Program-made: the position numbers and the translations under genes
Notes under the pieces: generated by a model
Databases searched by the model: none
The model's input: the letters and a program-made list of their open reading frames with translations, nothing else
What the model was told of the DNA's origin: nothing
Assembly (NCBI GenBank): GCA_003024785.1
Contig: PUQB01000139.1
Coordinates: 400,982-464,981 of the forward strand
Direction: 5' to 3'
Origin: Selaginella tamariscina
Lineage: Eukaryota > Streptophyta > Lycopodiopsida > Selaginellales > Selaginellaceae
DNA length: 64,000 nt
Shown: one piece after another, positions 11,412-54,867 of the stretch
Layout of the letters: each line of letters begins with the position of its first letter
Position numbering within the stretch: position 1 is the first letter of the stretch

Positions 11412-11539
11412 GTTAGCAACTTTGCTACATATTCTATGAAATATTATCGTATTTGAATAATTAGTAGCGGCCAGATTCTGCCTAGCGATGTCAGTGTACA
11501 AGTATAATATGAAAGTGAATCCTATGGATTTAGTACTAG

Positions 11540-14260
11540 CGCCAGGCTATTAGATCTGTAACCGGCATTCATTACCAAAGCTATTGCAACACTACCGAGT
11601 ACTTCTACCGGACAGATCCGATCTTCCTGTAAGCAATGTATATGATTGATGCTATCTTTGCAATTTTTCGCATTCTATATCTCTCTTTGTGTTGTCCCTC
11701 AAAGTCTGCAGGCATATTTTCTGTAAAATACTATTTTTCACATGTTTTTTTACTGAATTTTCCGTATTTTATTCATGTAATCCATGCGATTCTGGTGTTT
11801 TCCCCAAAGTCGCTGCATCTTAAGATATTCGAACTTGTTATGTTTATCACTCTACAGTCGTATGTTTTATGGACATCATGCAGAAATAGTACAAAAACTC
11901 TATGGACTTTTGCAATATACAGGATATACGTATATGAGCTTTTTGGGATTTTGCAGGAAAGCCAGGGAAACTTGAAGATGAGGATGCAGAGGCTTTGCAG
12001 AGTTGCCAGAAACTGCAATCTTGCTCAGCTCCACCTACATGAGAAAGATGAGGAGTTACACTGTTGAGGAACTACACTGTTTATTCGAGGGAGATTCCAT
12101 AAACAAGAATAAGTTCCTCCTTTTGAGCCTTTGAACAAGGACTTACCTAGCAGATTTAGAAGGTGCGTATATGTTGCTTGTTTAGGACATGCACTCCTAG
12201 ACGAGTGTTCGATTATTGCTATGTAAACTTATGCTGCAGCTGCCTTTTCCAACTTCGATCATGTTCATCAGATGGGAGAGGGAAAGCCAGACTCACGCGA
12301 TGAAGACGTTCAACAGTGGGGATGCCTTGGAGGCTTTACCTGCTTTGTGATTGGTTCTAGTACTACGAGTTTATCAACCCCTCCAGTCAAGGCCCCAGAG
12401 GCTGATGCTAGGGTGCTCCCAAATGAGCTTGTGAGGAAGTTAGACTTGGAAGGGGATTCTGGAAATACCGAGTTAAGACCCAGGAAGTACAACGCCGACC
12501 ACGATCTAACATGGTGTTTGAGGTAGCTGATACAAAGGAAACGAAGATTATACGTGATCATGCTGCATCTATTGCTCTGACACCACGGGTTGCCAAGAGC
12601 AACAGGGTTTCGGAGACGTCTGACCTGAATGTGCTCCGGTTTAACATCTCTGATGATAAGTATTACACTACAAAGACGTTTCTGGAGAATATTAAGTGTA
12701 AGAAACGCCTTCTCCATGGTGGTGTTAAGCTTGTCACTCGCTGCCCGCTTTAAAGCTGCAAACCATGAAGGTCAATCTCACGAAGTAAGTATATCGTTTG
12801 TGACACCATAGCTATAAACAGCTAACTACAGTTAACCATATAGTCATATCTGTATACACGTATATGAACATTTATGTGTGCAGATTTAAAACCGTTGAAA
12901 AAGACAAAAGTAACGTACCGTGGGTGGAGCTGCAAAAGAGGAAAACCTTTGTGAACCAGAAAATATCATCGAACTCGGTTCTTCATACGAAGGTGCAACC
13001 TCTGCCGAAAGCCCGGCGCCTTCCAGGTGACAACAAGCCGACGAGGTCCCCCAGTGCTTTCAGGAGGAAATCCGATCTCTTTGTTAAGGATGGTCACACG
13101 GGGCTTTAATGGAGAAGTATAAATGATATAGTATTAAGAATCATGATAATATACGATTAGATTCTATTAATACTATAAGGGCAGGAAAGGCCACTGTATT
13201 ATCAACGTATTACCGTAAGATGTCTCCTCAGCAGTGGTTCCACTTGAGCCAAGTGAAGACTCCTTTCCTGGGAAACATACGCCTGGGAGACACACAGTCC
13301 TGCCTGGAGACCAACATGTATCGTGCCCCCATCTTCCAGCACCAGGTTTGCTCTCTCTCTCTCTCTCTCTCACTGTCTCTCTCTCTCTCACACACACATG
13401 TTCAAATACCAGGTTTCCTCTACGGACTTTCTTCCGGCCAGTAGTACACGTCTTTAGGGAATTTCGTAGTATAGAGAAGCATGGTTCACAACCTCAGATT
13501 GCTGGTGAAGAGTTAATGGCCTTCGCTTAATAGCGGGTTTATCACTTAAACAGTATGCAGATCTGCAGGTATCCTTTTTGTGTGTGTGCCCTATGGATTA
13601 TGGATGTGGTTGTAATAGAGTTGTTCCGTCAGTCTTTTGTTCTATCTACACTTTACATACTACATTTTCTACAGAGGAGTCCATATTATGGAGAAACAAA
13701 TGGGTTATGGTAAAAGGCTTCCAAATTCCATTGGAGAAGGTGATTAGGCAGATGGTTACGGAGTTTGTGTATTCGTGCCAGATGGTTATACACATTATTA
13801 ATGCTTTATATTCATATGCAATCACGTTCAGTGGCTTATATGACCATGATTACCATATGTTTGTTATATTACTTTTGATCTCTGTAGCATGCATATTTTG
13901 AACCGCACACTTAGTTGTACATATAAATATACGAGCATTCTGTATTAAATGTTCATGTGAGTACATATTTACATAGGCACTTTGACTTCTGCATGTTTTA
14001 ATATTTTGGTATAAACGATGTATACACGCCATGTATACATAGTTACATATGTATACAACAAAAATGTATAACTAACATATATATATATTTTGTAGGTATG
14101 TGCTTATGAAAGTATGCTGGCGGGTATGCACCATCTAAGTTGCACAAGTTAACACAGCACGTTACCCTTGGTAATGCAAACATTGAGCTCTTATTCGAAG
14201 ACACGTGCATTGTTGCTGCTGCTACTGTTGAGTGAGAACTGCAGTTGATACCATGGATCA
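11540..14260 (+). pseudogene. TAF1-like gene fragment, copy A (5' half)
   Basis: This is a broken copy of the 5' half of the TFIID subunit TAF1. Recognisable blocks, in order, are: the 5' exon (about 11570-11632), KPGKLEDEDAEAL-type sequence (11956-12060), STPPVKAPEADARVLPNELV (12360-12440), NVLRFNISDDKYYTTKTFLE (12630-12690) and LPKARRLPGDNKPTRSPSAF (13005-13065). After these come the ETNMYRAP-type exon (13225-13350), a VVHVFREFRS block (13442-13475) and VCAYESMLAGMHHL (14096-14140). These match the order in plant TAF1. Stops and frame shifts occur in several blocks. The exon for YNRKADDAVYY, present in the other copies, is missing. A roughly 250-base deletion has fused two exons at about 13436. 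It cannot make a normal TAF1. Confidence 0.8.
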
Positions 14261-14778
14261 ACTTTATTGTGGTTAAGGTGTGTGTGTGCATGTGTGTATA
14301 GGGGAGGGTTCGTAACTTGGGACACGCTCATCTACTTTGAGAATACGTTGATATGTAGGGTACAGATAAATTAAACTACGGGCAGAGGATTAGAATTTAA
14401 ACCTGAATTACAGCCAACAACAACAGGTTCAAACGTACACAATTGGTGCTGGCCTCCGGAGATTAAGGATAGATGCCGCTTGTGAGGTACATGTGTTTAC
14501 GTGTCTTCATACTAATACATACGACAACTCTAACAAAAAGAGATATACTTTATTTTCATATATGTCCATTTAGGTTAGGTGTGAGAGTTTATATGTGCAT
14601 CTACAAGTAGATATTACTCTAGTATACAGTTGAGGATAGGATGTACATACGTGTGTCCATATGTGCGTGTCTTTTTTGTTGTAATTTTTCTTGCAATCTT
14701 AAATGTTGTTGGATCTCAATCGAACGGTCAAGGCTAAAGTGAGAAGTATCAAGAGATAATTTAAAAAGCAGAAAGAGA
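14261..14778. other. Spacer between TAF1 copy A and the decayed proteasome-like relic
   Basis: AT-rich sequence with a GT tract near 14278-14298. It holds no coding block that I can support. By position it corresponds to the short gap between the TAF1 and proteasome-like parts of copy C, but it is longer. Confidence 0.4.
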
Positions 14779-15975
14779 ATTCAAAGCCTAAAAAAATTGA
14801 GTAAACCACGGGTAATCTTTCTTATATATACACAAACGATATATACGGTAGACTATTAATTTTAAATGTAGTAAGTTTAATTTATTTTAATATAATATAT
14901 ATTAAATAAAAGTATACACATAATAAAAATTTATCATTATACGGTTGTTTTAAATATTTTCTATTACATTAAGCAGGTATATATATCATTATTATAAATA
15001 TATTATAAAGATTTTTAAATATTATATATATATAATATATATATATATATATAATTTTATTAATAAAGATTCTTAATAAGGTATTTTTAATAATTATTAT
15101 TTTATATTTTTATGTAATTAGTAAAATTGTTGTAATAGGTATTTGAAATGTTAAATGTGAGCAATATATACATTGATAAAATGATTATTTATAAATTCTT
15201 TTTATCATTTCCTTTAAAAAAGGCATAAAGTATTTACAAAATTGTTTATTTGAGATAACATAAGATACAATGGAGCTTTGTAAAATCATTTTTTTTTTTT
15301 TTTTTTTTCTTGTGCATAAAGACACCAAAACGATATATATTTACAACACTTTGTAGTGTTCAAAGATAGATTATATTATAAATATGATAATTATTATTAT
15401 TGAAAAACACTCGAGTTTTTTAGGATTATTTATGAGTATATACATATTTTTAAATTTAATATTATATATATACATGTGCATGTTGTGTTTGAGAGAGAGT
15501 AAGAGTAGATCAATTAATATTATTGATTTTGAATGAATGCAATTATGTTAATTTATATTTATTTATTATATATTGTAATTAATTGTTGTTATTTTAGTCA
15601 ACCTTATGTATAAGTATTCATTCACGATTCAAAAATATTTTTATAAAATTCATTATTGTTCAAATCATGTAACAAAGATTTTAAAGTAATTACATTATAT
15701 AAATTTATATAAAATATTTATATATAAAGATGTATATCTTAAAAAATTTGTATGTAACTTTTTTAGAGTGAATATTCAAATGTAATAATGTAATAATATA
15801 TAAAGACATTAAAAATTAAATGAAAATAATTGAGATATTATAAGGTGAATTTGGTACTGAATTAAAACATAAAGATATAAAATTTGGGATTTAGAAAGAC
15901 AATGTATAATGTGTTTAAAAAAAATTTATAATATTTTCATTGTTATGACACTTTTAATCAGTGTTATTGAAAGCA
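14779..15975 (+). pseudogene. AT-decayed relic of the proteasome-beta-like gene (left arm)
   Basis: By eye, this AT-rich stretch aligns with the proteasome-like gene at 25657-26608 (reverse strand) and its 5' flank. Matches include AATGTTAAATGTGAG beside the gene's AATGCTAAATGGGG (about 15150), an intron stretch with AATTTAATATTATA (about 15455), and AATTAAATGAAAAT beside AATCAAATGGAAAT (about 15815). Nearly all differences are C to T or G to A, which suggests long-term deamination. No reading frame remains. It lies downstream of TAF1 copy A in the same orientation, as the intact gene lies downstream of copy C. Confidence 0.65.
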
Positions 15976-16079
15976 AATTTACTTTCAGTTTTAACTCTTA
16001 AATATATGTTAATGCAATTTTAAGTCTTATATTTTTACATTTTTAATTTATAATGAGTTTATATTCAAATGCATTAATA

Positions 16080-17172
16080 ATTTTTTTTTCAATTTTTAAT
16101 GTTTTTACCCATTACTTGCATTTGTATATTTCTTTAAACTTTTTTGTAAATATTCTGAAATATATATCTTTATATATAATATATTTATGTAGATTATTTA
16201 TTATACAAGTTTATATAATGTAATATTTTGAAAAAATTAATATATGATTTAAAGAGTCAATAAATTTTTATAAAATATTCTTGGATTGTGAACGACTATT
16301 TACAATAAAACTGTTTAAAATTGATTATATTTATAATAAAAAATATAAATGTTAACATAATTTATTCATTTAAAATAAATTTAATTAATTGATCTTATAA
16401 TTCTCACTCTTTCTTTTACATATATTTATATAATATTAAATTTGAAAAATGTGCGTACTTATAAATGATTTTAAGAAATTCAAATGTTTTTTTTAGTAAC
16501 AGTAATTATTACATTTCCAATGTGGTACATCTTTCGAAATTACAAACTCTTGTAAATATTTATTATTTATGTGTATGAAAGGAAAAACAAATAATTAATT
16601 CTTTATAAAATTTTAATGTATCGTGTGTTATCTTGAATGAACTATCTTGTAAATACTTTATGTATTTTCAAAAAGAAAATAATAAAAAAGAATAATGAAT
16701 AACCATTTCACCAGTGTATATGCTACCCCATTTAACATTTTAAATAATTACTATGATAATTTTACTAACTACAAAATAAATATATAATAATAATTATTAA
16801 AAGTACCTTATTAAATAACTTTATTAATAAACTTATTATATATACATAAAAAATGCTTGTATGTATTTATTTTTATTATTTATTTATTTATATTTATAAT
16901 GGTACCTACTTAATGTAGTTTGAAAATCTTTAAAATATTTCACGCCGACACAAAACAAACATATAATATAAAATCTTTGTTATATGTATACTTTATTATT
17001 AAGTATAATATATATATTATATTAAAGTCAATTCAATGTACTACATTTGAAGTTTAATAGTCTACCATGTGTGTGTCTATATATGTGTGTGTGTGTTGCA
17101 TATTATCTATGTATATATAAGACTCCTTCACCATTTTTTTAAAATCTTTTTTAGGCTTTGAATTCTATGCAT
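16080..17172 (-). pseudogene. AT-decayed relic of the proteasome-beta-like gene (right arm, inverted)
   Basis: Read in reverse complement this matches both the left arm and the proteasome-like gene. It starts with GAATTCAAAGCCTAAAAAA (17172 downward) and passes through GGTAGACTATTAA. It contains AATGTTAAATGGGGTAGCAT (about 16720) and a degenerate version of the exon encoding KVYRIGN (about 16530). With the left arm it forms a large imperfect inverted repeat centred near 16.0 kb. The inner boundary is not resolved. No open frame survives. Confidence 0.65.
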
Positions 17173-17500
17173 TTACATATGGCCATGCAAGCATAAATAC
17201 ACATATTTGGGAGGTACACACACAATAACACATCTTTATAGTTAATATCATTAAACAATACCATGAAAGATCTTAAAAGTAAAATATAAAGGGTTAATAA
17301 AAACATAAAGAAATCAAGTTATCTAAGTAAAAGGAACTTTATAATTCTTATAATAAAATTTACGTGTTTCTTCCCAACAGCGTGTATATTAAGTTATTAA
17401 GTTATTAAGTCAAATTTTAAAGTCAAATGACTTTATCAAATAAGAATTGTAATAACGATAATTCATGAAATATATTTGCCTGTAGCAGCATTAAATTTTA
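17173..17500. other. AT-rich spacer
   Basis: Low-GC sequence with short tandem TTAAG repeats near 17390-17410. No coding block is visible. Confidence 0.4.
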
Positions 17501-17955
17501 GGAAAAATTATATTTATTTCCCTGAAATTTATCATATTTACATATATATCCCTATAAATTTTATATTTACATTTATACCTACGAAACTTCAATTTAAAAC
17601 TTTATAAATTTCAAAATTAAAAATAAAAAGCATTTAAAAAATCAATTAAAATTTATAATTAATTTGTACTTTATTATATTTAGATCTAAAACAATCTATT
17701 AAACATATATATCGTAATATAATATAATTATTTTTTAAAAATATTTCATTTTTTACTATGATAATTTTTTGACATTTAACACTTAATTATTTCATTCGCA
17801 ATATTTTATAAATCAAAAATATATTTTTAGTTAATATTATTATTTTAAAAGTCAAAATCAAATTTTTTTAGTTAATATTATTATTTTAAAAATTAAAATA
17901 TTACCATTAAAGTTTCAAAGGGTATATATACGTAAATTTACAACTTTTAAAAGAG
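17501..17955. mobile_element. MITE-like element, copy 1 (one end recognisable)
   Basis: It begins with GGAAAAATTATATTTATTTCC and a CATATTTACATATATA stretch shared with the starts of the elements at 18944 and 30255. The inner AT-rich sequence is also shared (ACATATATATCGTAATATAA type). The far end carries AAGGGTATATATACGTAAATT but no clear second terminal repeat. It has no coding capacity, as expected for a non-autonomous element. Confidence 0.5.
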
Positions 17956-18943
17956 CCCATTCGTTTGTTCATTAGTAAAGAGAATGTGTAGGTTGCATCG
18001 TTTGTTCATCGGTAGAGAGAATGTGTATGCATGTATATGCGGTATATAGAGTTGCAAGTTGTTCACCAAATGGTATTTAAATTTAGATACTCATGTACTA
18101 AGTGACTTAAGCAACTCTACTAAGTACTTAGAAACCGATAGTTCTTTTTCTTTTCTTTTTTTTTTTAATCAGTAAGTATGCACAAGCTCTCTCTCTCAGA
18201 CACACAGTTGGAGAGAGCATTTATATATGCAGTAGGTTATACTTGGCACATATACAGTTATGTATTGACACTACATGCACAGATATAGATCATGTACAAC
18301 AAAATCCGGAAGTAACATAGCCACCAGATGGATCTCACCATTGAGCTCAATACTGCGTAATGTGGGGAGCAATCTCTTTCACCAATCCGGACGAATTGTA
18401 TGATCAACCGTACACCAGTCACTATGCCAACGACTGACATGAATAGCACGTCGTCTAAAACGAGCTTAGATTCTGGTTGGACTATTGTGGAAAGGTTCAG
18501 CTCTAAAAGCCGTGACTTTCAGGTAATAGATTGTGTTATGAAGGTTATCTGTTAAAATACTACGTGTATGATGTGCGTGTGAGTGTGTGAGGTCTGTCTG
18601 CGAGGTAAACAAAACCATCAAATACATGTAATATAAAACAGCAAGATGTTATATGTACATAACACACACACACACGTACATAGGTAAAACCGTAAAACTA
18701 GGATATAAAGCATAAGTAATCTTACGAAAATAACCAAGATAGCACATACTCATGCCAATAATATTACATATAATCTAGTGCATAACAAAATGTTCAAATT
18801 ATATATGGATGCATCAATGCAATAATATAACATGCAATCAAATAGTTTTAAATAAGATACAAGATAAAGACGTTGGACTTTGTTTGTGATTAATACAAGA
18901 CTGAAAAAAATATATTAAAATGATTTAATGTTATAATATTATG
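17956..18943. other. Spacer with a less AT-rich island and a possible first exon
   Basis: Most of this interval is AT-rich with microsatellites. Between about 18290 and 18525 base composition returns to gene-like values. An ATG at 18439 opens 28 codons (MNSTSSKTSLDSGW and on to KSRDFQ) ending at a good donor, CAG|GTAATA, at 18522. I cannot find following exons, so this may be the stub of a transposed gene. Confidence 0.3.
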
Positions 18944-19413
18944 GGAAAATTTCATATATACCCTCAAATTTACTGTATTACGTATATACCCATGAAACTT
19001 CAATTAAAACTGAAAATTAAAAATTAAAATGTAATTTTATAAATTAAAAAAAAAATCACAATTAATTTATGTTTTATTATGTTTATTTTTAAAATGTAAC
19101 CAATTAAACATACATATTGCAATATAATATATTTATTTTAAAAAAGATTTTTTTTTTAACATTTTCTATTATGATACTTTTAAACATTTAATAATTAAGG
19201 AACTTCATTTTATTTCATTATAAATATGTTAGAAGTTAAATACAATTTTTCAATAAAGTATTATTACTTTAAAATTAAAAAATGCAAGGATTAAAGTTTT
19301 CTAAGGGTATATATGTAAATTGAAATTTTTTAAAAGAATGAATATATTACGTAAATATAAAAATTCTAGATATGTAAATATGATAAATTTGAGGATTATT
19401 TATGAAATTTTCT
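18944..19413. mobile_element. MITE-like element, copy 2, with terminal inverted repeats
   Basis: This 470-base element has inverted ends. The left end reads GGAAAATTTCATATATACCC then TCAAATTTA. The right end, in reverse complement, reads AGAAAATTTCATAAATAATCC then TCAAATTTA. The inside is AT-rich and non-coding. Related copies lie at 17501-17955 and 30255-30573. It has the form of a miniature inverted-repeat transposable element; the superfamily cannot be told without the target-site duplication, which I could not fix. Confidence 0.6.
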
Positions 19414-19464
19414 AATAAATCTTATTTTAAAAAACCATAAAATGCGTTTAGCTGTATTTTATAA

Positions 19465-21480
19465 CTTTTTAATGAGCTTAAAGAATATACCGACGAATAT
19501 GCCGTGTTCAGTGTTCGTGAAATTCTTGAGCTGGAGAGGAGCGCGTCTGTAACCGGCATTCATTCCATGGCAACACTACCGAGTACTTCATCCGGAGAGT
19601 CCTGTAAGAAATGTATATGATTGATGCTATCTTTGCAATTTTCCGCATTCTATCTCTCTCTTTTTTCACATGATCTTCGTGTTATCCCTCAAAATCTGCA
19701 TTTTATCATGCATATTTTCTGTATAATTTTCACATTTTTTTACTGAATTTTTCATATAATCCATGCGATTCTGGCGTTTTCCCCAAGTCGCTGCATCTTA
19801 CAGGTTCTTAGAAATAACTGCATTTTCAAGAGGTTTCTCGTGAACGTTTAGTGCTTCTTCCGCATTTAATATTAAGGCTTTTCCGTGTTTTATATGAAAA
19901 ATAGATTTTAGGCTTTTCCAAAACTTTTGTATTTTGTAGACTATAACAGAAAAGCTGACGATGCTGTGTACTATAACGAAGCTCGTGACGAGGACGGGCA
20001 AATGAAGAGAAGCGCTATTCTGCTCTTGCTCCTGCTGTTCCTGACCTCATGGTTGTACGAGCAGGTAAAGATTGCAATGTTTGATCTTGCATATGTGCAA
20101 AGTCGCTAATCACAATATGCATGTGTTTGTGATGTTGCTGTAGGGGTGTAATACTAGTAGGTACTGATTTGGTAATTTTTTTGAAAGTTTACAATAGTAA
20201 TTATACAGTTGTATATATAGATATTCGAACTTGTTATGTTTATCACTCTACAGTCGTATGTTTTATGAACATAATAGTACAAAAACTCTATGACTTTTGC
20301 AATATACAGGATATACGTATATGAGCTTTTTGGGATTTTGCAGGAAAGCCAGGGAAACTTGAAGATGAGGATGCAGAGGCTTTGCAGAGTTGCCAGAAAC
20401 TGCAATCTTGCTCAGCTCCACCTACATGAGAAAGATGAGGAGTTACACTGTTGAGGAACTACACTGTTTATTCGAGGGAGATTCCATAAACAAGAATAAG
20501 TTCCTCCTTTTGAGCCTTTGAACAAGGACTTACCTGAGCTAGCAGATTTAGAAGGTGCGTATATGTTGCTTGTTTAGGAGATGCACTCCTAGACGAGTGT
20601 TCGATTATTGCTATATAAACTTATGCTCGTCGCCATATGCAGCTGCCTTTTCGTTCATTAGATGGGGATTCTATGCGATTCTTGAGAGGGAAAGCCAGAC
20701 TCACACGATGAAGACGTTCAGCAGGGGGAATGCCTTGGAGGCTTTACCTGCTTTGTGATTGGTTCTAGTACTACGAGTTTATCAACCCTCCAGTGAAGGC
20801 CCCAGACGCTTATGCTAGGGTGCTCCCTAATGAGCTTGTGAGGAAGTTGGACTTGGAAGGGATTCTGGAAATACTGAATTAAGACCCAGGAAGTACGATC
20901 TAACCATGGTGTTTGAGGTAGCTGATGCGAAGGAAACAAAGATTATACGTGATCATGCTGCATCTATTGCTCTGACACCACGGGTTGCCAAGAGCAGAGA
21001 CGTCTGACCTGAATGTGCTCCGGTTTAATATCTCTGATGATAAGTATTACACTACAAAGACGTTTCTGGAGAATATTAAGTGTAAGAAATGCCTTCTCCA
21101 TGGTGGTGTTGAGCTTGTTCACTCGTTGCCCGCTTTAAAGCTGCAAACCATGAAGGTCAATCACGAAGAAAGTATATCGTTTGTGACACAATAGCTATAA
21201 ACACATATTACATATCAAGTTAAGTAGCTGTATGTAACTTTATATCTGTTATGCTTAAATGCAAACCTTTATTTTGCAGTAAAAACTTGGGTCTACATGG
21301 TTTCCACATCGTAACTGCCAAGGAGCAGGGGCAACAGGCTCTCCCTAGGGACCCAACAATCAAAACCTTGAGCAAGCTTGACGCAGATGCGTCTGATGGC
21401 TTTGAAGCCTTCATGCCCAAGGCTGTCAAAAAGCTTGGAGGTGCTTTATCTATTTCTATTGTCGTTTATAGATATGACTA
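19465..21480 (+). pseudogene. TAF1-like gene fragment, copy B (5' half)
   Basis: This is a second + strand TAF1 fragment. It begins with the shared 5' leader (AAAGAATATACCGACGAATA), then an ATG context giving MATLPSTSSGESC at about 19568. It keeps the exon for YNRKADDAVYYNEARDEDG (about 19939-20065), the LEDEDAEAL-type exon (20340-20440) and STSLSTPPVKAP-type sequence (20760-20830). NVLRFNISDDKYYTTKTFLE follows at about 21010-21070, then LLHGGVELVHSLPALKLQTM (21095-21155) and a KEQGQQALPRDPTIKTL exon (21320-21375). Frames are broken in several blocks. It stops where copies A and C go on to the KVHPLPKAQRLPG exon. Large stretches are close to identical to copy A. Confidence 0.78.
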
Positions 21481-23723
21481 ACTACAGTTACCCAACACAT
21501 GGCAATAACACGTGATTGTCACATCACTTGTGGCACTCATGCATATTACATATTTATAATCTCTATGAACAATAATAGTTTGTTGATTGGCTTGTTAACT
21601 TTAACTTTAAAATTCATTAGAATGAATTATTTTGAAATGAATGTGTGAATATCAATTGGTCTATCGAAACATTACTACTGAGTAAATTTTGAAGACTACT
21701 ATAAGTTAATTTGAAAGTCAAATTCATTATTTTGAAGGACTTTAATGAAATAAAAATACTTATATAATATGTTTGACAATACATGTATAATATAGTGAAA
21801 GGTTTATGATAATAAATTGTTAAAACATTTATGAAATATTTATGTAGGACAAGTGGTAATAAACCATTATATATTATTAAAGAACATGTAATTCACTAAG
21901 TTAAATTTAACATTTAGTTTTAAAATCTTTAATAGTTGTCTAAAATTTATATTTTGTAAGCTTTTTGGTATTATAAAATTATAATATAAAATCTATCATT
22001 ATTTTTTTAACTTATAATGAATATGGTTTTATTGATATTCTTACAAACTTCATTGATAGTGTTTTGTTTTATTTATAATGTTCATTAGAATATAATATTT
22101 ACGATGATACGTGTGTTAAATTGGTTTTGAAAAGTTAATTTATAATTAAAATTTAAACTTGAAAGGAAATAATTCAAGTTCATTATTCATATAGAATTTA
22201 ATGATTTTGTAGGTTAAAACTAAATTTTATAACGTAATAATAAAGAGTCAATATTTGTTATTCTTCTTAATTAGTTAATTTAAATTAAAAAAATCCTATG
22301 TGTATACATAATGAAAAATTATATAAACTTAATAAGGATTTTATAACATGCATGAATTTTATAATAAAATTAAACATTTATATGACACATGTACCAATTT
22401 AAAATGTGACAAAATCAATGATAATGTATAACAAAATTCATTAACATGAAAAGTTTTATGATTAATGTTTAAATTTTTTAAAATGATTTATAAATTTAAT
22501 AAAGATTCTTGGGTTGGTGCACATGCCTATAATGTGTATAAGTTTGCAATATTTAAGATGTTTTATTAGTAATATAAAATATTTAAGATGTTTTATTAAT
22601 ATATAATGCTACATTTTAAATTTAAGGTTGAATTTATACATGTGTATAAATGTAAGTGCTAATAAGTATTTTAATTAATTAATAACTTCACCAAAGCTTA
22701 ACTACCTAAACTTAATTGATTTTTTTAATTATAATTAAGTAATTTGTATTAGTTTAATATTTTAGTTAAATTAACATATTTATTTATGTAGTAAGAGTTC
22801 AACATTATCGTGTTACAATTCAAAAAAGAAAAAATTAAATGAAAAAACTTAGATTATTGTGTTATTTTCAAAGTGTTATATATAAATTTAGGTGAATATG
22901 ATGAGTATTACGGATAATTTTATATTTTTAAAAGATAACAAATAGTAATTAATGTTATTATAATTTATAAGCACCATTTTAATATTTAATACTCTATAAC
23001 AATGTTATTAATAAGAATTTCGATTTAGTACAAGTCACTTTAACATTCTACATATTAATTAAAAGAATTTTGAGAGTGTCTCCTTAACTTTAAATTTGGT
23101 AATAATATCATGTTTAATTTAATTCTAACTATAACATAATTTATTATAATGGAATAAACGGTGATGATGTTACAAATACCATGTATGATTTAAATTCAAT
23201 TCAATTTATACAATAAACCTCAATATTGTAGTAAATCAAATTTTAAAAGATAATTTTTTTATTTTATTTATTTATTACTTGCTATTATACTATAACTGAC
23301 TTTAAACAATTGAATAATAATAATAACTATTTAGTGTATTCTTTTGACATTTTCTTAGATATATTAATATTTTATACAAGTGCAAACATTCTCTCTATAA
23401 ATTATAACAAAAATATCGTTTACTAGGTGCATTAAACTAAATGTTTACATATATAATATATACATGTGCATATATTTATATTGGCATATTTTAATAAAAC
23501 ATTTTTCTACTGGTCTAATTAAACAATGATAACCATTTATGGATTTTTATTATTGGAGACTTTTGAACTTTTAATATAATAATGTTCAATTTAAATTATC
23601 CCCAATATATGCACTTGATTTTCCATGTCTTTACTCAGTAATTATAATTCAATTTAAAACTAATTAATACATAAACACAAAGATATACACATGTAAATGT
23701 GTATGTATATATGTGTGTGCGTA

Positions 23724-23758
<35 letters not shown>

Positions 23759-24840
23759 GCAACCAATTATCAAGATTCTAAATTAAATTAGTCAACTTAA
23801 ATCAGTATACATAAACTTATAACTATTCATGTATATTAATTTATATATATATAGGTACATTCTATTATATAGCCCCCTCCCCTTAAATATGATTAATTAA
23901 ATCATTATTTTAATGATTTTATATGCATTCAGAGGATATAAGAGAAAAATACCTTCAAAATTAATGCATTTATATACATGATTTAATATATATAAATTTT
24001 CTTAAATATATTTTTTTCTTAGTTTTTTATATTTATTAATTAATCACCACTAATACAAAAAAGGGTTGTATATTAATTGTCCCTCCCCCCCCCTCTCTAT
24101 ATATATATCTTTTTATTTCTTTATATTGTTGTTACATTTTCTTATCCCATGTACATGTTTTATTTTTCCACAATTTTATCTTTATATATTTTAGAATTAT
24201 ATTATTTAATTGCATGTTATGTTTTTTATTGACGTGTCCCTGTATAATTTGAGCATTAGAAGTAAATTCATTTATCTATCTATATGTTGTATGTATATAT
24301 GGTGTTTGAAAAGTTATTTAGCCATATAATACTAAGAAAAACTCATTAAGACAAATTAAGAAAGTAATTTTAAAGTTAAAAATGTAACTTAAAAGTGCAA
24401 GTGTCATGTTATATAGTTTACACATGATATAAATTTTTATTAATTATATATAAAATACATCATATAAAACTTTATAACTTAACTATATTTGGAAATAATT
24501 GAATAACATGTGGAACAACATATATATTATACTGATTCAAATTAACATTATTAAAATCTTTTACATGAATAAAACTTTTTGGATTGGTCATATTTAAAGT
24601 TTAAGCATATGTACTCAATAATATACTTATGTATTAAAACAACATAGTTAATAAGATTTAATTAGTAATTAACCTTTTATGTTAACCTACTCAATTTTAA
24701 TATCATTTACTATTAACAGTATTTATTTTGATGCAATCGCTTTACAAACGTTTGATTTGAATATTCTGGCACCGTTGATTAAGATTCCAAGCGTCTTCTT
24801 CTCCTTATATGCCAGGAGTAGCCCTAATTTCTAGGGCAAG
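21481..24840. other. Long AT-rich gene-free spacer
   Basis: About 3.4 kb of very AT-rich sequence. I see no coding exon, RNA gene or clear terminal repeat. Simple repeats occur at 23708-23757 (GT then AT) and a C tract followed by CT and AT at 24081-24109. By analogy with 14.8-17.2 kb it may contain old duplicated sequence mutated beyond recognition by eye. Confidence 0.5.
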
Positions 24841-25656: not shown

Positions 25657-26608
25657 TTAAGCAGACATGTCAACACAGTAAGTACGTCCTCCGCAGGCTT
25701 CATAGAGAGTTTTCTTGCACTTTAGAACAGCTCTTCTAGCCAATTGCTTTGCATCGTTTAATGTTTGGACTTCCTCTCCCTTGTGTAAGTTTTCCCTGCA
25801 TATATATATATATATATAAGTTTCAATCTCTTATATATATATATATATCATTTACCTCAGAACTTTCATTGCTGTAGCACTTCCAGAACCCAAACACATT
25901 GCGACAGTACTCCCAAATATGATATCATTGTGTTTAATTTCATAACCGTGTTCACCTTCAAATATCCCAACGATTTCCATTTGATTTTCCTTGGTTTGGC
26001 CCATTAGCATGTAATCGCATTTGGATATTCCTTCTAATAAAAATATATATAAAAATATTTTAATTTATTTTATATAATATAATTAATTACCGATTGTTTA
26101 TTACACAACTTGAAAATCCAATGAGTTGCAGTAGAGATATTTTCAGTTCGTGATTGCTTGCGTTTAAGCTTGGCTGAAATAAAAAAATTAGTTATAAATT
26201 ATAATAAATAAAAATCAAATTGTATTTGTTCAAAATAAATTCTATTAATTAACTGTGTAACTTATACTCTCTCTTTTACACATTATGTACATATTTATAT
26301 AATATTAAATTTTAAGAATATGTGTGTGTACTCACCTATAGTCTTGAGAAACTCAAGTATGTTTCCAGTCGCAGCAATCGTCACGTTTCCGATGCGATAC
26401 ACTTTTTGAACCCTCAAGCTCCTGTAAATATATATTGTTTTTGTGTGTACAACGTGAAAACAAAAAAAAAGAAAAATAAAAGAAAAATAAAATCTTACAG
26501 AATTTTGTAGTATCCTGTGCTGTCCCGAATAAACTGTCTCTTGGAGAGGTGTAGATACTTCATACCTTTTCCAAAAGGAAAGGGTAAAGGAGTTTCTTGA
26601 GTAGCCAT
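25657..26608 (-). CDS. Proteasome beta-type (peptidase T1 family) subunit-like protein
   Basis: Four or more exons on the minus strand encode an Ntn-hydrolase-like protein. The ATG at 26608 gives MATQETPLPFPFGKGMKYLH, spliced to SLRVQKVYRIGNVTIAATGN (about 26330-26425), whose pattern resembles VERI..GKHSLLGASGE of beta subunits. A further exon (about 26100-26170) is Lys/Arg-rich. Then come GQTKENQMEIVGIFEGEHGY and FGSTVAMCLGSGSATAMKVL (about 25860-26030) and a last exon ending EACGGRTYCVDMSA with TAA at 25657. The GSGSA turn and the C-terminal GG strand are family-like. No N-terminal catalytic Thr is evident, so it may be a non-catalytic or diverged subunit. It lies directly downstream of TAF1 copy C, and decayed copies occur at 14.8-17.2 kb. 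The identity is moderate and rests on pattern recognition. Confidence 0.5.
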
Positions 26609-26720
26609 CCATCAGTATATATAGTACCCCATTTAGCATTCACAATGCCTACTAAAATAGTTTTACTAACTGCAAAACAAATATATAAATATAATAATTA
26701 TTTAAAAAAATATTTAAAAA

Positions 26721-26722
<2 letters not shown>

Positions 26723-26794
<72 letters not shown>
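26723..26794. repeat. (AT)n microsatellite, about 72 bases
   Basis: A nearly perfect AT dinucleotide tract lies in the 5' flank or an intron of the proteasome-like gene. It can form a hairpin and is likely to vary in length. Confidence 0.9.
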
Positions 26795-26798
<4 letters not shown>

Positions 26799-26984
26799 GG
26801 TACTTCCTTGATGTTGAAATCTCTAAAACCAGCTCCTTGTGATGTTATATGCTGTAAAATTAATCTACTGTATATATCTATAAAAATACAATATATCTCT
26901 CTTTGTTCATAGTAGAGAGTTATATTATACACACTAAAATATTAGTATAAATACAGATAAATACCCGTGTACTGTACCTCATGA

Positions 26985-29900
26985 ACGGCAACATCTATGC
27001 TTAATTCTTGTTTAACATCCCTCTTTAAATGATGCATACCCGCTAGCATACTTTCATAAACACATACCTACAAATATATATATATATATGTTAGTTATAT
27101 GTTTTTGTTGTATACATATGTAACTATGTATACATGGCGTGTATACATGGACAGATGACTTTATATGTGAATGCTATTAAAACATGCAAAAGTCAAAGTG
27201 CATATGTAAATATGTACTCACACGAACATTTAACACGCAGAATATAACAAACGTATGGTAATCATGGTCGTATAAGCCACTGAACGTGATTGCATATGAA
27301 TATAAAACGCTAGCATTAATAATGTCTATAACCATCTGCCTCAAATACACAAACTCACTTGTTCAGGCGTAACCATCCGTCTAATCGCCTTCTCCGATGG
27401 AATTTGGAAGCCGTTTACCATAACCCATTGTGTTTCTCCATGTGGACTTCTCTGTAGAAAATGTAGTATGTAAAATGTAGATAGAACAAAAGACTGACGT
27501 AACAACTCTCTTACAACCACATCCATAAGGCACACACACAAAAGAGTACCTGCAGATCTGCATACTGTTTAAGGATTTCGGTGATAAACCCGCTATTAAG
27601 CGAAGGGAAATGGGCCATTAAATCTTCACCAGCAATCTGAGGTTGTAAACCATGCTTCTCTCTACTACGAAATTCCCGAAAGACGTGTACTACTAGCCGG
27701 TTTTCCAGATAGGTTAACACATTCTTTGATGATGGTGCAGTCACCTCAATGTGTGGCTCCTGTTACAACGTTAAGATAATAAGTATCTTAAACATGCATG
27801 CTCATTGATATATGCTCTACAATAAGGGACATGGTTCCGATTATATACATATACATCAAAAGGCATACTACTCAGATGCATACCTGCCGACCAACAACGT
27901 GAATGCTGTCAATACGTCTGAGAAAGACTTTCCCTTTTGGAGATCGAACAAGAAGAAAGTCCGTAGAGGAAACCTGGTATTCGAAAATGAGTGTGTGTGA
28001 GAGCGAGAGGGGGAGAGAGAGCAAACCTGGTGTTGGAAGATGGGGCACGATACATATTGTTCTCCAGGCAGGACTGTGTGTCTCCCAGGCGTATGTTTCC
28101 CAGAAAAGGAGACTCTTCACTTGGCTCAAGTGGAAGAACTGCACCCAGCCACGCTCCTTTCTCTTCTTTGAGAGTTACAGCCGTCTGATCCGCAGGAGAC
28201 ATCTTACGGTAATACGTTGATAATATTGCTCCCATTCCAACATTGCTCAATAGCAGTGGCCTTTCTTCACAATATCTGCATATACATAGTATTAATAGTA
28301 GGAATCTAATCGTATATTATCATGATTCTTAATACTAATCACTTATACTTACTCCATCAAAGCCACGTGACCATCCTTAACAGAAAGATCGGATTTCCTC
28401 CTGAAAGCACTGGGGGCCTCGTCGGCTTGTTGTCACCTGGAAGGCGCTGGGCTTTCGGCAGAGGATGCACCTTCATATGAACGAGATGGAGTACGGAGTT
28501 CGGGTCCACAGAGGTTTTCCCCTTCTGCAGCTCGCACCCACGGTTCCTTACTTCTGTATCTGCACGCATAAACGTTCATATACGTGTATACAGATATGAC
28601 TATATAGTTAAGTGTAATTAGTTAAACATCTGTAAACGGCAGTAGAAAACCTCCAAGCTTTATGACAGCCTTGGGCATGACTGCGTCAAGCTTGCTACCT
28701 TTATCGCTCAAGGTTTTGAATGTTGGGTCCCTAGTGAGAGCCTGTTGCCCCTGCTCCTTGGCAGCTACCTCATTTTGATGTGGAAACCACGTAGCCTTTG
28801 GACGATGGAAATTATCCAAGTCCTTACTGCAAAAAAGGAAAAAGCTTAATCATATAGTCTACAAAGGTCTGCATTTACAGAATAACACTATATAAAGTTA
28901 TACTTAAGTAATGCTTGTTTATAGTTATGTGTCACAAACGCACACACAATTATAGATATACTTACTTCGTGAGATTGGCTTTCATGGTTTGCAGCTTTAA
29001 GGGGCAACGAGTGAACAAGTTTAACACCACCATGGAGAAGGCGTTTCTTACTCTTAGTTCTCCAAGTCCTTGTTCAAAGGCTCAAAAGGGAGGAACTTAT
29101 GCTTGTTTATGGAATCTCCCTCGAATAAACAGTGTAACTCCTTATTTCTCATGTATGTGGAGCTGAGCAAGATTGTAGTTTTCCGGCAACTCTGTCAAAG
29201 CCTCTGCATCCTCATCTTCAAGTTTCCCTGGCTTTCCTGCAAAATCCCCAAAAGCTCATATACATATATCTGTATATTGCAAAAGTGCATAGAGTCTTGT
29301 ACTATTTCTCTCATACATGCATGATGTTCATAAAACATAAAACAGAAAACATAACAAGTTCGCATATCTATATATACAACTTTATAATTGTAAACTTCCA
29401 AAAAATTGCCAAATCAAGTACCTACAGCAACATCACTGTGACTTTGCACATATGCAAGATCAAACTTGCAATCTTTACCTGCTTGTACAACGGGTCAGGA
29501 GCAGCGGGAGCAACCATGAGAGCCTGAGCAGATTTAAGCGGCACTTGCTCGTCGTCGTCGTGAGCTTCGATATAGTACACAGCATCATCAGCTTTCCTGT
29601 TATAGTCTACAGATATATGGAAATGTAATTTAGTTTCGGAAAAGCCTAATAGAGTACAGACAAACTTTACTTCATATAAAAGACGGAAAAGCCTAAAATG
29701 ACAGTATCAAATGCGGAAGAAGCACTTTGAAATCTCGAAAACCTCTTGAAAATGCCGTTATTTCTAAGAACCTTTAAGATGCAGCGACTTTAAGGAAAAC
29801 ACCAAAATCGCATGGATTATATGAATAAAATACAGAAAATTCAGTAAAAAATGTGAAAAAATAGTTTTTTACAGAAAATATGCCTGATAAAAATGCAGTT

Positions 29901-30026
29901 TTTGAGGATTACATGAAGAAAATGTGAAAAAAGAGAGATATAGAATGCGGAAAATTGCAAAGATAGCATCAATCATATACATTGCTTACAGGAAGATCGG
30001 ATGTGTCCGGATGAAGTACTCGCCAT
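26985..30026 (-). pseudogene. TAF1-like gene fragment, copy C (5' half, most complete)
   Basis: This minus-strand copy reads like plant TAF1. The ATG at 30026 gives MASTSSGHIRSSC, followed by YNRKADDAVYYIEAHDDDEQ (about 29608-29488), GKPGKLEDEDAEALTELPEN (29238 downward), KDLDNFHRPKATWFPHQNEV (about 28820) and VHPLPKAQRLPGDNKPTRPP (about 28450). Next come SNVGMGAILSTYYRKMSPAD (about 28240) and PSEESPFLGNIRLGDTQSCL with NNMYRAP (about 28060), then SPKGKVFLRRIDSIHVVGRQ (about 27910), LVVHVFREFRSREKHG and the YESMLAGMHHLKRDV exon (about 27060-26985). TAF1 is the TFIID scaffold for RNA polymerase II initiation. Two lesions are visible. A stop follows LAQLHIHEK near 29150, and an internal deletion joins the EFLPFEPLNKDL region to the RLLHGGVKLVH region near 29065, removing blocks kept in A and B. 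It ends before the HAT and bromodomain parts. Confidence 0.8.
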
Positions 30027-30254
30027 GGCTTTGGTAATGAATGCCGGTTACAGACCTAATAGCCGCTCTCTCTACCTGGCGCTCCTGCTCGCCGACCTCC
30101 AGCTCAAGAATGAAAACCCTATTCGATTTCAGGGCTCTTTGATCTTTACGGGTGCTTGCGTACGAACACTGCCCGCAAAAATGAACACGGCATATTCTCT
30201 GGTATATTCTTTGAGCTCGTTAAAAAAAAATAATTATAAAATTCAGTTACATAA

Positions 30255-30573
30255 GATTAGTCATATATAACCCTCAAATTTATTATTTTTACAAATTTAC
30301 CCTAAAATTTTTATATTTGCAATCCTTGTATTTGTTATTAAAAATAATAATATTTTTATAAAAATTATGCATTTAACTGTAGAACTGTACAGAACGAAAT
30401 AAAAATAAAGTTTCTTAATTATTTAAATGTTAAAAATGAAATATTTTAAAAAATAAATATATTAATTGCAATATGAGCTAAACATAAAATATAAGTTAAT
30501 CATAATTTTTTCTTGTATTTTGAAAATATATTTTAAATTTTAACTTTGAATTGTGGTATATATGAAATTTTCT
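30255..30573. mobile_element. MITE-like element, copy 3
   Basis: The ends match the elements at 17501 and 18944: TCATATATAACCCTCAAATT at the left and TATATGAAATTTTCT at the right. The inside carries the shared AT-rich core in the opposite orientation (ATTAATTGCAATATGAGC). It lies just outside the 5' end of TAF1 copy C. The rest up to 30940 is AT-rich without genes. Confidence 0.5.
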
Positions 30574-30940
30574 ATAAAAGTATATCATTAAATAATTTTA
30601 ATATAGTTTTTTCAATCTTATAACAAAGTCCAGCGTGTAAACTTTCATTGATGTATTGCGTTGAGTACCACGTGTTGATACATGGAATAGTTAAAATGCA
30701 TGTAGATTACTTATACATACTCATAAACTACATATGGTATGATTAATTAACTCATAACTCAAATCAATAAATAATAACCATGTGTATGTGAGGTTAATAA
30801 ACAGCAATCAAATGAAATCACGTATGCTGAAACAAGTGTGTTTGTATAGAGAGGGGAGGTGCAATTTATTTATTTAGTTTTGGTATGTGATAAAAAAGAA
30901 AGAGAGAGACAAAAACTACTGTGAGCTGATGATGAGGAAA

Positions 30941-32189
30941 TCAGAGGAGCTCCCCGACAGGTGCCTCATTCAGCCAAAGGAAGTGGATGAAATCGTAAAG
31001 CTTCCCACTTACGCTCACCTGCAGATTAAAAAGACACTCAGATACGTGCTACGCTAGTTGTGTGTATACCTTGTAAGGTGTTGGATTGAGACCACGCATA
31101 TGATCAGGACGCATTGCAGCAAGTTGCTTCTGGCAACGTTGCCTAGACTCCTCGAGCGATGGTAAGCTTTCCTGCTTAAGTCCTGAGAAAAAGAAATCAT
31201 CATTAATTATAGAGATACACGCACACATATGCTTTGTAACACATGTATCTATAGCATAAATGTTCAATTCATAAGAAGAGAGGGGAGGAGGGGGAAGGGG
31301 AGAACCTGATTTTCCAGCCCAGTAGCACTTGTACAAAGGCTCGACTCTTTGAGGAATCACAATACGCTCTCTTCGACTCCATAAACGGATGCCGACAAAG
31401 TATACGCTCTCCCACCTGCATACATGTATTTATAAATAACATTAAATATGCTTACCCTTTAATATGTTGTTAATACACCTTTGGAGGGGGTTCAGATGCA
31501 CCGGTCATTAGATCAACCAAAGCAAAGCCTTCTTTACCATATATCCTGTAACACTGCTTCTTACATGGGATTGTAACCTTGCTCACGTCTTCAGATATCT
31601 TAATCCGAGGATGGCCACTAACTTCTACTAGCTTGTAAAACACATCCAAGTGCTGGTTGTGTGTAGCATGTAACCAAGTGCGTTCCGATCCCAAATGCAT
31701 CTATCTCGTGTCCCTGCTGGCCATAACATATATTAGCCATTAGATGATAAGAACAACATGCGTGTGTATATGCATCATATTCACCGTGTATATTTAATGT
31801 GTGTATACTGTTTATTTTTATCTCGAACATGGTCAGAATTTTCTGTCTATATGCATATACATACGCACACCTCCACTTATCTCTCTTCATGACGAGGACA
31901 AACAGGAGATCCCCCAGACATGAATCAAAAATATATACAAAATATGCACGCCTACATACACTGCGTCTATGTGTACCTGTTTATTTAACGCGTCTAGAGT
32001 GTCCTCGTTAATATCATTACTCACGATAATGATCATTCTCCCGAAATTTGGGACGTCCGAGCTCCTCCTCTATCGTGCGGAAGAACTTCCTTGCCTGGAT
32101 TGAAAAGTAGGACAAGTCCCGGAGTCCAGCCGTATACCCCGTGGCTTGTAGCTGCATATATTGTAAATACATAGAAGTATATAATCTAC

Positions 32190-32228
<39 letters not shown>

Positions 32229-33793
32229 TCATATTAATATACGCGTGTGTGTGTGTGTGTGTGTTACCCGAGGCTTTGTAAAGCTAGCGCTACAGCGCAG
32301 AAGTTTGGAATCCCGCTTCTCATTACCTGAAAATCAAATAAGAATGGTCTATACATATATGTCATAACACAGACACCACGCACATGCACGCACTCACGCA
32401 CACACACGAATATATACATCATATGTATCGACGAGGGCCAGGAACTCTGTGGGAAATGCCAACGCATATGATGAAAACGCTGCAAGCTCGCTTTGATTGG
32501 TCTCAGAAAAGACTGCTCTAAGGGACTCAACACCCTGCATAACATCAACACATACGTTACAAACAACGATATTAAAGGATATATGAAGGCAAACCTGCAT
32601 TCTGCTGAGCCAAGTCTGTACAAGGCGAACAAAGTCTTCACATATGTCTTTCTTATTTGCATACACCAAGGTCCTCTCCACAATTTCATCAAAACTCTGT
32701 ATGTAGAAAACTTATCAAAACAAATGCGGGCGGGCGGGCGTGCGTCTGTGTACTAACCATGTAAGAGCTGACAAAAGCATGCGAGTGCGTCCCACGAACA
32801 GGAATGTTGAAAAGCCGTCCGGCTTCGAGATTACTGCAAACACTAAGGGATTAACACGAACGCATCACATTGCGTGCAAAGAACACCTTGTAGCATCAAA
32901 GCCTCCCAAGTAACAGTATTTTGAAGCGCTTATACCTCCATCTGGTCCCTGTATTATCAATTAAAATCAGTTGTTCTATGTATGTGTGTGAGTGGTGATG
33001 ATGATGATAGTTTTGATTACTTGGGCTCGACGTAAACCGAATTCAAGGAGCATTTTCGAGTGTCCAGCAACAAGTCTGTGCCTTGCGGCATTGGTTGCTA
33101 CTAATGATGAATAATTGACGAGTGTGAGAAATGTTGTTTCCAACATTTGAACCACCTAAGAAAAATAAAAGCATGTAAAATACAAGCGAATGTACATCGT
33201 ATATATTTATGTATGTGTCTGTGTACACATAACGTATATATGTGCTGAATGGACATATATGTACACACAGACACGCACATGACATAGAGGCTTACCCAAA
33301 TGGACCTTCAACCCTTATAAGCGGTACACGAGGAAAAACCACAGATCTTCAGGAATGGCATGTAACACCACTTCCGAACAATCCAGTCCCTCTAATTGCT
33401 CATAAAAGTCGTTCTGGGACAAATAAAAAATATAACTCAAAGAAGAACATGTTGTGTGTGTGCGCGCGTACACGTACTTCCACATTTGGAGGCATTATGC
33501 TGCGCAAGTAATCGATATGATAATCTTCAAACTTGAAAGATGAAACGAAACGAATGCATTCATCAAGGCCAGCAAAGACTGTGAACTCACCACCAAACGG
33601 AGTCTTTCGATAGAGCAAATCAAACCTGAAATATGCATGTATATATACATGTACTGTGTGTGTGCGCGTGCGGGTGCGTGTGCGCTTACACTGCTATGTC
33701 AAGGTGTTTCCCGGCTTTCCAGTACGCGTATGCCATTGTTATCTGGTACATGTCCGTAAGCAATGGACTAACCATTGGGTTCGTAGTTCTCAT
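30941..33793 (-). CDS. Nicotinate phosphoribosyltransferase, tandem copy 1
   Basis: This NAPRT enzyme converts nicotinate and PRPP to nicotinate mononucleotide, the entry step of the Preiss-Handler route to NAD. About a dozen short exons encode it. The start [17 protein letters not shown] lies at 33793. [100 protein letters not shown] and the C terminus [16 protein letters not shown] follow in family order. Three single-base breaks show against copy 2 or the family: one G lost near 33343-33350, CCC instead of CCCC at 32118-32120, and an extra A at 31637-31640. The copy 2 sequence is in frame at the first two sites. An upstream untranslated exon and a CA-rich intron appear shared with copy 2. 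Confidence 0.88.
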
Positions 33794-54283: not shown

Positions 54284-54645
54284 AAAGGAACTCTGTTCTT
54301 GTTTTTCATATAATAAAAATACGTTCTAATTAATAGTCTGGTAATTATACATTTCACACACACACACACACACACACGTGTAAAATGAACAAGAGAAGAA
54401 CTACAATCGTGCAAAAAATATTTCAAGAACAAGGTATATGCTTAGAATATTAGGGAATATTTTAAAATAAACCCTAATATTTTATGACACACATGACACT
54501 TAAATTTTCTTAGATAATTTAATTTAATTATAAGAAGTGTTTTATGCTAAAGTTCAATATCAAAATAAAAAGGTGGTTGATAGGTCACTTTTAATTCTGA
54601 CATTAGTACACCGTTAAGTACACCATTTTCCTTCTTAATTGTCAA

Positions 54646-54867
54646 CCTATTGTGGTAGTGAAAGGAAATGACCATGATAAATCCTTTAGAAAGAAAAAGC
54701 TTGATTTGGCACATGCGTACCTATTGTGGTAGTGAAAGGAAATGACCATGATAAATCCTTTAGAAAGAAAAAGCTTGATTTGGCACATGCGTACCTATTG
54801 TGGTAGTGAAAGGAAATGACCATGATAAATCCTTTAGAAAGAAAAAGCTTGATTTGGCACATGCGTA
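54646..54867. repeat. Three tandem copies of a 74-bp unit
   Basis: The unit begins CCTATTGTGGTAGTGAAAGG and ends GGCACATGCGTA. Copies start at 54646, 54720 and 54794 and appear identical over their length, so the duplication is recent. It lies in an AT-rich intergenic stretch (54284-55389) with no gene. Confidence 0.92.

Follow-up and report, generated by a model that had tools for sequence, protein, structure and literature searches.

The window analysed here, a stretch of 64,000 nucleotides of the Selaginella tamariscina genome, is plant nuclear DNA with pieces of pentatricopeptide-repeat, P450, UDP-glucosyltransferase, kinase, chlorophyllase and BTB genes. Pfam matches were obtained for seven of the ten open reading frames (ORFs) tested, and one tRNA-Leu is present. 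A direct duplication of about 2.5 kb pairs 31059-33792 with 34941-37363 at 78-90% identity in pieces; an ORF within it (32267-32752) has no Pfam match. At 54645-54867, a 74-bp unit is repeated exactly in tandem in about three copies. The features of the locus considered below are listed in the table.

Table. Features around the palindrome (positions in the window)
Feature	Position	Strand	Remarks
S1, TAF1-like (DUF3591) pseudogene copy	11545-14590	+	adjoins the palindrome on its upstream side; end placed by eye; GC about 0.41
Arm A	14774-15970	+	forms the distal end of S1; copies C in sense orientation, with decay; GC about 0.17
Palindrome centre (approximate)	15971-16011		
Arm B	16012-17172	-	repeats arm A in inverse orientation, the arms lying tail to tail; GC about 0.17
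Additional, decayed copy of a flank (30.1-30.6 / 18.95-19.34 kb)	17500-17960	+	z 5.8-6.3; non-palindromic
S2, second copy	18900-21490	+	includes AT-rich left flank at 18.9-19.5 kb
AT-rich desert	21501-24800		GC 0.20; no similarity detected to S1, to S3, to either arm or to the probable TAF1 parent
Dispersed AT-rich repeat copy, about 230 bp	23829-24087		within the desert; MITE-like ends (by eye); 830 first-look genome candidates
Proteasome-like gene remnant, exon pieces	25657-26690	-	
C, arm sequence in a less decayed state	25852-26834	-	within S3; nhmmer span
S3, third copy of the TAF1-like part	26850-30620	-	with AT-rich flank at 30.1-30.62 kb

The whole palindrome block is very AT-rich and measures about 2.4 kb. 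In a blastn self-comparison of the window, 14824-17084 matched itself as an inverted repeat (68.5% over 2397 columns, 795 bits), 14992-15889 matched 26795-25911 inversely, and 16317-16935 matched 26184-26828 directly. The source copy thus lies about 10 kb away. A preliminary description of this DNA had proposed that the block aligns in both orientations with the proteasome-like gene region, and this was borne out when local alignment scores were compared with 200 dinucleotide-preserving shuffles per pair: 2388 against 959 +/- 39 for A-B (z 37), 1791 against 614 +/- 36 for A-C (z 33) and 1519 against 586 +/- 40 for B-C (z 23.5). The homology is slightly shorter than the span of 25657-26930 named there, running from 26834 to 25852. 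The segment from 14774 to about 14980 is, by eye, common to the two arms only and missing from C. Alignment is poor over the 69 columns nearest the centre (15827-15970 against 16080-16012), of which 38 are identical.

Within the assembly (300.7 Mb, 1391 contigs), the palindrome itself and C were the sole long matches among the best 40 of 51 candidates; the others in this set were short, of about 130 bases at most, and fell mostly on the AT-repeat stretch of the query. With C as the only other long match, a many-copy transposon of the foldback or MITE type was rejected. No target-site duplication was seen by eye at 14774 / 17172. A recent assembly artefact from hairpin reads is unlikely, since the arms differ by about a quarter. 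Judging from these alignments, the block is an old, decayed inverted duplicate and as such an object of a known kind. Inverted gene duplications in plants include PAI1-PAI4 of Arabidopsis. The palindrome resembles such duplications in that a gene piece has been doubled in inverse beside related copies and dsRNA is possible in principle, but it is heavily decayed and known from sequence alone.

The doubled piece belongs to a segment present in three copies at the locus, with a TAF1-like pseudogene upstream of both C and arm A. S1 extends over 11.5-15.97 kb (+) when the distal end in the palindrome is included, and S3 over 30.62-25.6 kb (-) with its proteasome-like part. DUF3591, which we take to be a domain of TAF1 (TFIID subunit 1), was matched at E=1.1e-48 by the joined S3 pieces and at E=3.9e-9 by one S1 ORF. 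A locus at about 18.3-23.4 kb on another contig (C324), here called T, is the probable TAF1 parent and was taken as such because it matches along its length. The similarity of S1 and S3 to T stops at about T 23370-23405 by eye (blastn end for S3 at T 23369), apparently within an intron, again as judged by eye. As judged by eye, S1 and S3 pass from the TAF1-like to the proteasome-like part at almost identical points. As both copies lose similarity to T at about one position, they seem to have this junction in common and probably go back to one duplication.

The exon pieces of the proteasome-like remnant, spliced by eye, match PF00227 at E=1.3e-4 with 22.1 bits, just under the curated cutoff of 22.4, and the spliced peptide has a weak similarity to PSMA4 (proteasome alpha type-4, E about 0.5). 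Its five genome matches at E<=0.001 all lie at C itself. Single exon pieces, and a first, partly wrong join, gave nothing significant for this part.

Little seems to have constrained the TAF1-like copies as coding sequence. Differences by codon position number 72/69/86 between T and S3 in 497 codons and 88/88/120 between T and S1 in 406 codons, a test diluted by ORF pairs, some of them between T and S3, that look like introns or wrong frames; in the seven exon-like rows of T and S3 they number 36/41/60. Coding constraint would thus be weak at most, and purifying selection was judged unlikely as the main keeper of the GC content of the TAF1-like part. The identity among the copies is mosaic. 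S1 and S2 are 99-100% identical over 11847-12155 and 79% identical at 11500-11676, while S1 and S3 fall from 96% at 13.5 kb to 85% at 14.05-14.5 kb, a pattern that suggests gene conversion. In the alignment of 11823-12820 with 20219-21203 (S1/S2), about 300 bp of 99-100% identity lie inside a region that is otherwise 79-97% identical. Towards the palindrome, about two thirds of S1 at 14.085-14.6 kb is without a counterpart in either S2 or S3; this part of S1 has diverged 20% from T, and it has not decayed to AT.

At the palindrome edge, GC drops from 0.33 in 14601-14800 to 0.18 in 14801-15000. The changes had been described as overwhelmingly C to T and G to A. The direction holds and the adverb does not: without polarisation, 98 of the 262 A-C differences are of this kind, beside 39 opposite transitions and 125 transversions, and in B-C they make up 89 of 231, other changes being the majority. 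Counted per GC site of C, the unpolarised GC>AT changes amount to 70/156 and 72/161 for the arms. Changes were polarised by three-copy parsimony in well-aligned columns only, on the assumption that C is nearest the ancestral state; changes common to both arms cannot be assigned in this way. On the arm branches this gave GC>AT transitions at 47/122 and AT>GC transitions at 38/817 (L-INS-i); two other alignment settings gave GC>AT at 46/125 and 47/124.

For comparison, S1 at 14.085-14.6 kb, beside the palindrome, shows 30/167 (GC>AT) and 18/195 (AT>GC) against T, and in the TAF1-like part, with S3 and T used for polarisation, the S1 branch shows 13/447 and 14/652. The dispersed repeat of the table gave 149/792 and 151/3249 in 18 copies, which were picked from 39 other matches listed by their similarity to the window copy and in whose consensus only CHH cytosines were counted. 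That consensus has GC 0.20 and no CG or CHG cytosine counted, and the window copy itself (GC>AT 11/44) is not clearly above the 18 others. The arms lose GC at about twice the rate of the dispersed repeat at an equal AT>GC rate (p=4.5e-6), and also about twice as fast as S1 at 14.085-14.6 kb (p=1.4e-4 polarised; p=1.8e-7 unpolarised, C to A against the adjacent T to S1). The transition bias predicted for the block is thus present. On transitions alone, the equilibrium GC would be 0.11 for the arms, 0.20 for the dispersed repeat and 0.34 for S1 at 14.085-14.6 kb. The excess GC loss in the arms is modest. A<>T changes are likewise raised in the arms (51/555 and 53/462, against 7/195 in S1), and part of this A-T transversion excess may come from AT-rich sequence being misaligned. 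In S3, a short piece of the TAF1-like part by the junction has a similar bias (GC>AT 8/34, AT>GC 3/71).

The losses were then sorted by sequence context. Polarised arm losses comprise 6/8 CG, 7/13 CHG and 34/101 CHH sites, so that CG and CHG together are lost more often (13/21) than CHH (p=0.025, small numbers). Unpolarised losses of A and B against C are 27/40, 26/48 and 106/244, and in another alignment 16/29, 26/48 and 100/240 (CG against CHH not significant, p=0.17); the CG fraction is above the CHH fraction in all three counts. The TAF1-like part of S1 shows a clear order, with 31/136, 22/171 and 52/558 (p=5e-5); a faster decay of methylatable contexts is expected in plants. Loss at CHH sites is itself higher in the arms than in the dispersed repeat (122/642, p=0.0015), an excess due mostly to arm B (24/57, against 10/44 in arm A). 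The arms would resemble silenced plant repeats that decay by methylation-driven C>T change in losing CG and CHG oftener than CHH, as far as these small numbers go, but differ from them in that most losses are CHH and exceed the CHH rate of the dispersed repeat. In S. lepidophylla retrotransposons, passages of one study describe much CpG and CHG methylation and comparatively little at CHH (PMC5750206). Since most arm losses fall on CHH sites, this literature suggests that methylation probably accounts for only part of the GC loss. The proposed origin by methylation and deamination accordingly stands as a probable contribution, through the faster CG and CHG loss, and is not supported as the main cause, 34 of the 47 polarised losses being CHH.

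AT decay is found at the locus outside the palindrome as well. The stretches at 17.5-18.0 and 18.9-19.5 kb are related to the flank at 30.1-30.8 kb (z about 6 and about 11, 25 shuffles) and to each other. In the first of them, GC>AT changes reach 19/46 against 18.9-19.5 kb and 14/35 against 30.1-30.66 kb, which makes this non-palindromic stretch about as decayed as the arms by their unpolarised counts. The AT-rich flanks of S2 and S3 both have GC 0.14, so this flank desert may be older than the split between the two. The desert at 21.5-24.8 kb is different, as no alignment with any of six references tried scored more than 4 s.d. above 25 shuffles; the idea that it is what decay has left of S2, for which its length would be suitable, was rejected on this ground. 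Among the best 40 of 830 candidates, the 39 other genome matches listed for this desert all lie within its dispersed repeat. The suggestion that other AT-rich deserts here are fossil duplicates thus applies to 17.5-18.0 and 18.9-19.5 kb and found no match at 21.5-24.8 kb.

Inverted repeats and AT-rich blocks were surveyed in 154 kb from eight sources, namely the window, 30 kb of contig C324 and six 10-kb stretches on long contigs that had already given matches. Outside the window, inverted repeats occur in four of the six stretches (L054, L055, L056, L059); they have GC 0.37-0.61 and are not AT-rich, and some are as diverged as the arms (71% in L054). Inside the window, the inverted pairs S1/S3 and S2/S3 have GC 0.29-0.46 except in the AT-rich flank (0.14-0.22). 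Blocks below GC 0.22 were seen in four of the eight sources (the window, C324, L057, L059), among them a nearly single-copy desert of 4.1 kb with GC 0.18 at 5901-10000 of L057, in which no inverted repeat was found. AT deserts may be a general feature of the S. tamariscina genome. A palindrome is neither necessary nor sufficient for AT decay, because the non-palindromic 17.5-18.0 kb stretch is as decayed, nothing in the L057 desert was recognised as inversely repeated, and inverted repeats elsewhere lack the AT richness.

Fungal-type RIP prefers mutation of CpA to TpA, with GC>AT transitions dominating in duplicated DNA. The locus shares with it duplicated DNA and a GC>AT transition excess. 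It differs in belonging to a plant, in that other sampled repeats are not AT-rich, and in that the 21.5-24.8 kb and L057 deserts are AT-rich with no duplication detected. By dinucleotide, polarised arm losses are 20/55 for CpA, 9/20 for CpC, 6/8 for CpG and 12/39 for CpT. CpA is thus not preferred over CpC or CpG, and fungal-type RIP was rejected; the RIP-like process offered earlier as an option is not supported. Among the papers listed in narrow searches of an open-access library, no title or abstract opening named a plant example of RIP-like mutation linked with inverted repeats.

If mutation treats the two strands alike, a palindrome is bound to gain as many transitions that keep G-U pairing in the + strand RNA as transitions that break it. 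With the innermost 69 columns left out, the numbers are 87 and 52 (p=0.004), and over all columns 102 and 57 (p=0.00045). This asymmetry was noticed after folding, so that the test is post hoc. Across five alignment settings it shrinks to 70-72 against 49-50 under a laxer local-identity filter (p 0.045-0.069) and to 43-44 against 34 under a stricter one (p 0.31-0.36). It is confined to the inner part (65 against 30 in 15182-15826; 22 against 22 in 14774-15181). Polarised changes on the + strand are C>T 33/70 and G>A 14/52 (p=0.026), or 50/93 and 19/63 unfiltered (p=0.005). Compared with C without polarisation, arm A shows the asymmetry (C>T 41/62, G>A 29/94) and arm B, in window + orientation, does not (C>T 41/95, G>A 31/66). 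Ten other repeat pairs showed none (lowest p 0.07). The + strand is richer in G than in C (229 against 187, p=0.044) and richer in T than in A (1038 against 945, p=0.039). Transcription through the arms is a possible cause of this weak asymmetry. If transcribed from the + strand, the palindrome could fold into a long hairpin, with a predicted -692 kcal/mol against -400 in eight shuffles and 851 predicted inter-arm pairs against 746 on the - strand.

The palindrome is best regarded, with moderate confidence, as a fossil whose arms drifted to an AT-rich equilibrium with a contribution from methylation, its TAF1-like neighbours having been partly homogenised by gene conversion. A chimeric segment, made of the 5' part of a TAF1 gene and a proteasome-like gene, would have been duplicated at the locus, and the distal end of S1 then doubled tail to tail to form the palindrome. 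With no function left, the arms would drift to a very AT-rich mutational equilibrium of about 11% GC on transitions alone. Most losses, at CHH sites, would come from general AT-biased mutation, and CG and CHG methylation in putatively silent chromatin would probably add to them. The neighbouring TAF1-like copies, partly homogenised by conversion, would have retained their GC. Nothing shows a present-day function of the palindrome. Ordinary decay with methylation is preferred to targeted decay, which is kept as a rival, because of the 17.5-18.0 kb stretch, the repeats and deserts of the survey, and the mosaic identity of the copies. Two observations speak against the preferred reading. The break in composition coincides with the palindrome edge while S1 at 14.085-14.6 kb, with few partners for conversion, has not decayed to AT, which plain drift does not explain unless some local cause is added; and the strand asymmetry is left unexplained by drift.

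It is also conceivable, though rather improbable, that no special decay took place. The age of the arm sequence would then be roughly that of the split from the TAF1 parent, and its composition close to a neutral equilibrium; conversion among S1, S2 and S3, or else weak selection, would have preserved both the likeness of the TAF1-like parts and their higher GC. The mosaic identity, the raised A<>T changes in the arms and the similar bias of the S3 stretch near the junction agree with this. Against it, S1 at 14.085-14.6 kb, with few partners for conversion, diverged 20% from T and yet shows GC>AT at only 30/167. The doubled GC>AT rate relative to the dispersed repeat, at an equal AT>GC rate, also counts against it.

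A local cause of decay might be the palindrome itself, if read-through RNA folded back and small RNAs directed cytosine methylation to the arms, with deamination to follow. The start of the GC>AT excess at the palindrome edge, the faster loss of CG and CHG and the predicted hairpin would fit, and the machinery may be at hand: passages of PMC5569507 describe many RdDM genes in lycophytes, and part of PMC4607528 lists DCL paralogues for S. moellendorffii, read here as including two of DCL3 type. This reading is nevertheless unlikely, as 17.5-18.0 kb decayed equally without a palindrome, other inverted repeats, some of them as diverged, kept a higher GC, and the 4.1-kb desert arose without any. 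Most losses are moreover CHH, the class little methylated in the S. lepidophylla passages, and those of PMC5569507 describe S. moellendorffii and S. uncinata as lacking a clear 24-nt small RNA peak, although all three are species other than S. tamariscina.

Two further readings start from the strand asymmetry. It is very doubtful that the palindrome is a self-mutating structure, in which + strand transcription, perhaps by read-through from the TAF1-like pseudogene, and AT-rich cruciform extrusion would expose one strand, whose cytosines would be deaminated with little regard to context. Least probable, and hardly to be expected, is an active locus of hairpin RNA (a proto-miRNA or hpRNA) under selection for pairing of the + strand transcript. 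Plant miRNA genes have been described as arising from pseudogenes duplicated in inverse orientation (PMC3237417), and the excess of G-U-keeping transitions and the better + strand fold would suit it. However, A<>T changes, which break pairs, are common (77 of 1069 columns), conservation is not noticeably higher in any segment of the arms, the longest exact matches between arms and C measure 19-22 nt and consist of A and T alone, and the post hoc asymmetry weakens in filtered columns.

If the self-mutating palindrome were true, it would amount to a plant GC>AT hypermutation confined to a palindrome, unequal between the strands and owing nothing to RIP or to CHH methylation. Whatever the mutator, palindromes carry a built-in control, for the same sequence stands on opposite strands and strand-symmetric mutation must equalise the two transition classes. 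The cause of mutation in plant duplicates, be it methylation, transcription or drift, can thus be addressed from the sequence alone. For S. tamariscina, the results suggest that the AT-rich deserts of its genome need no RIP-like defence.
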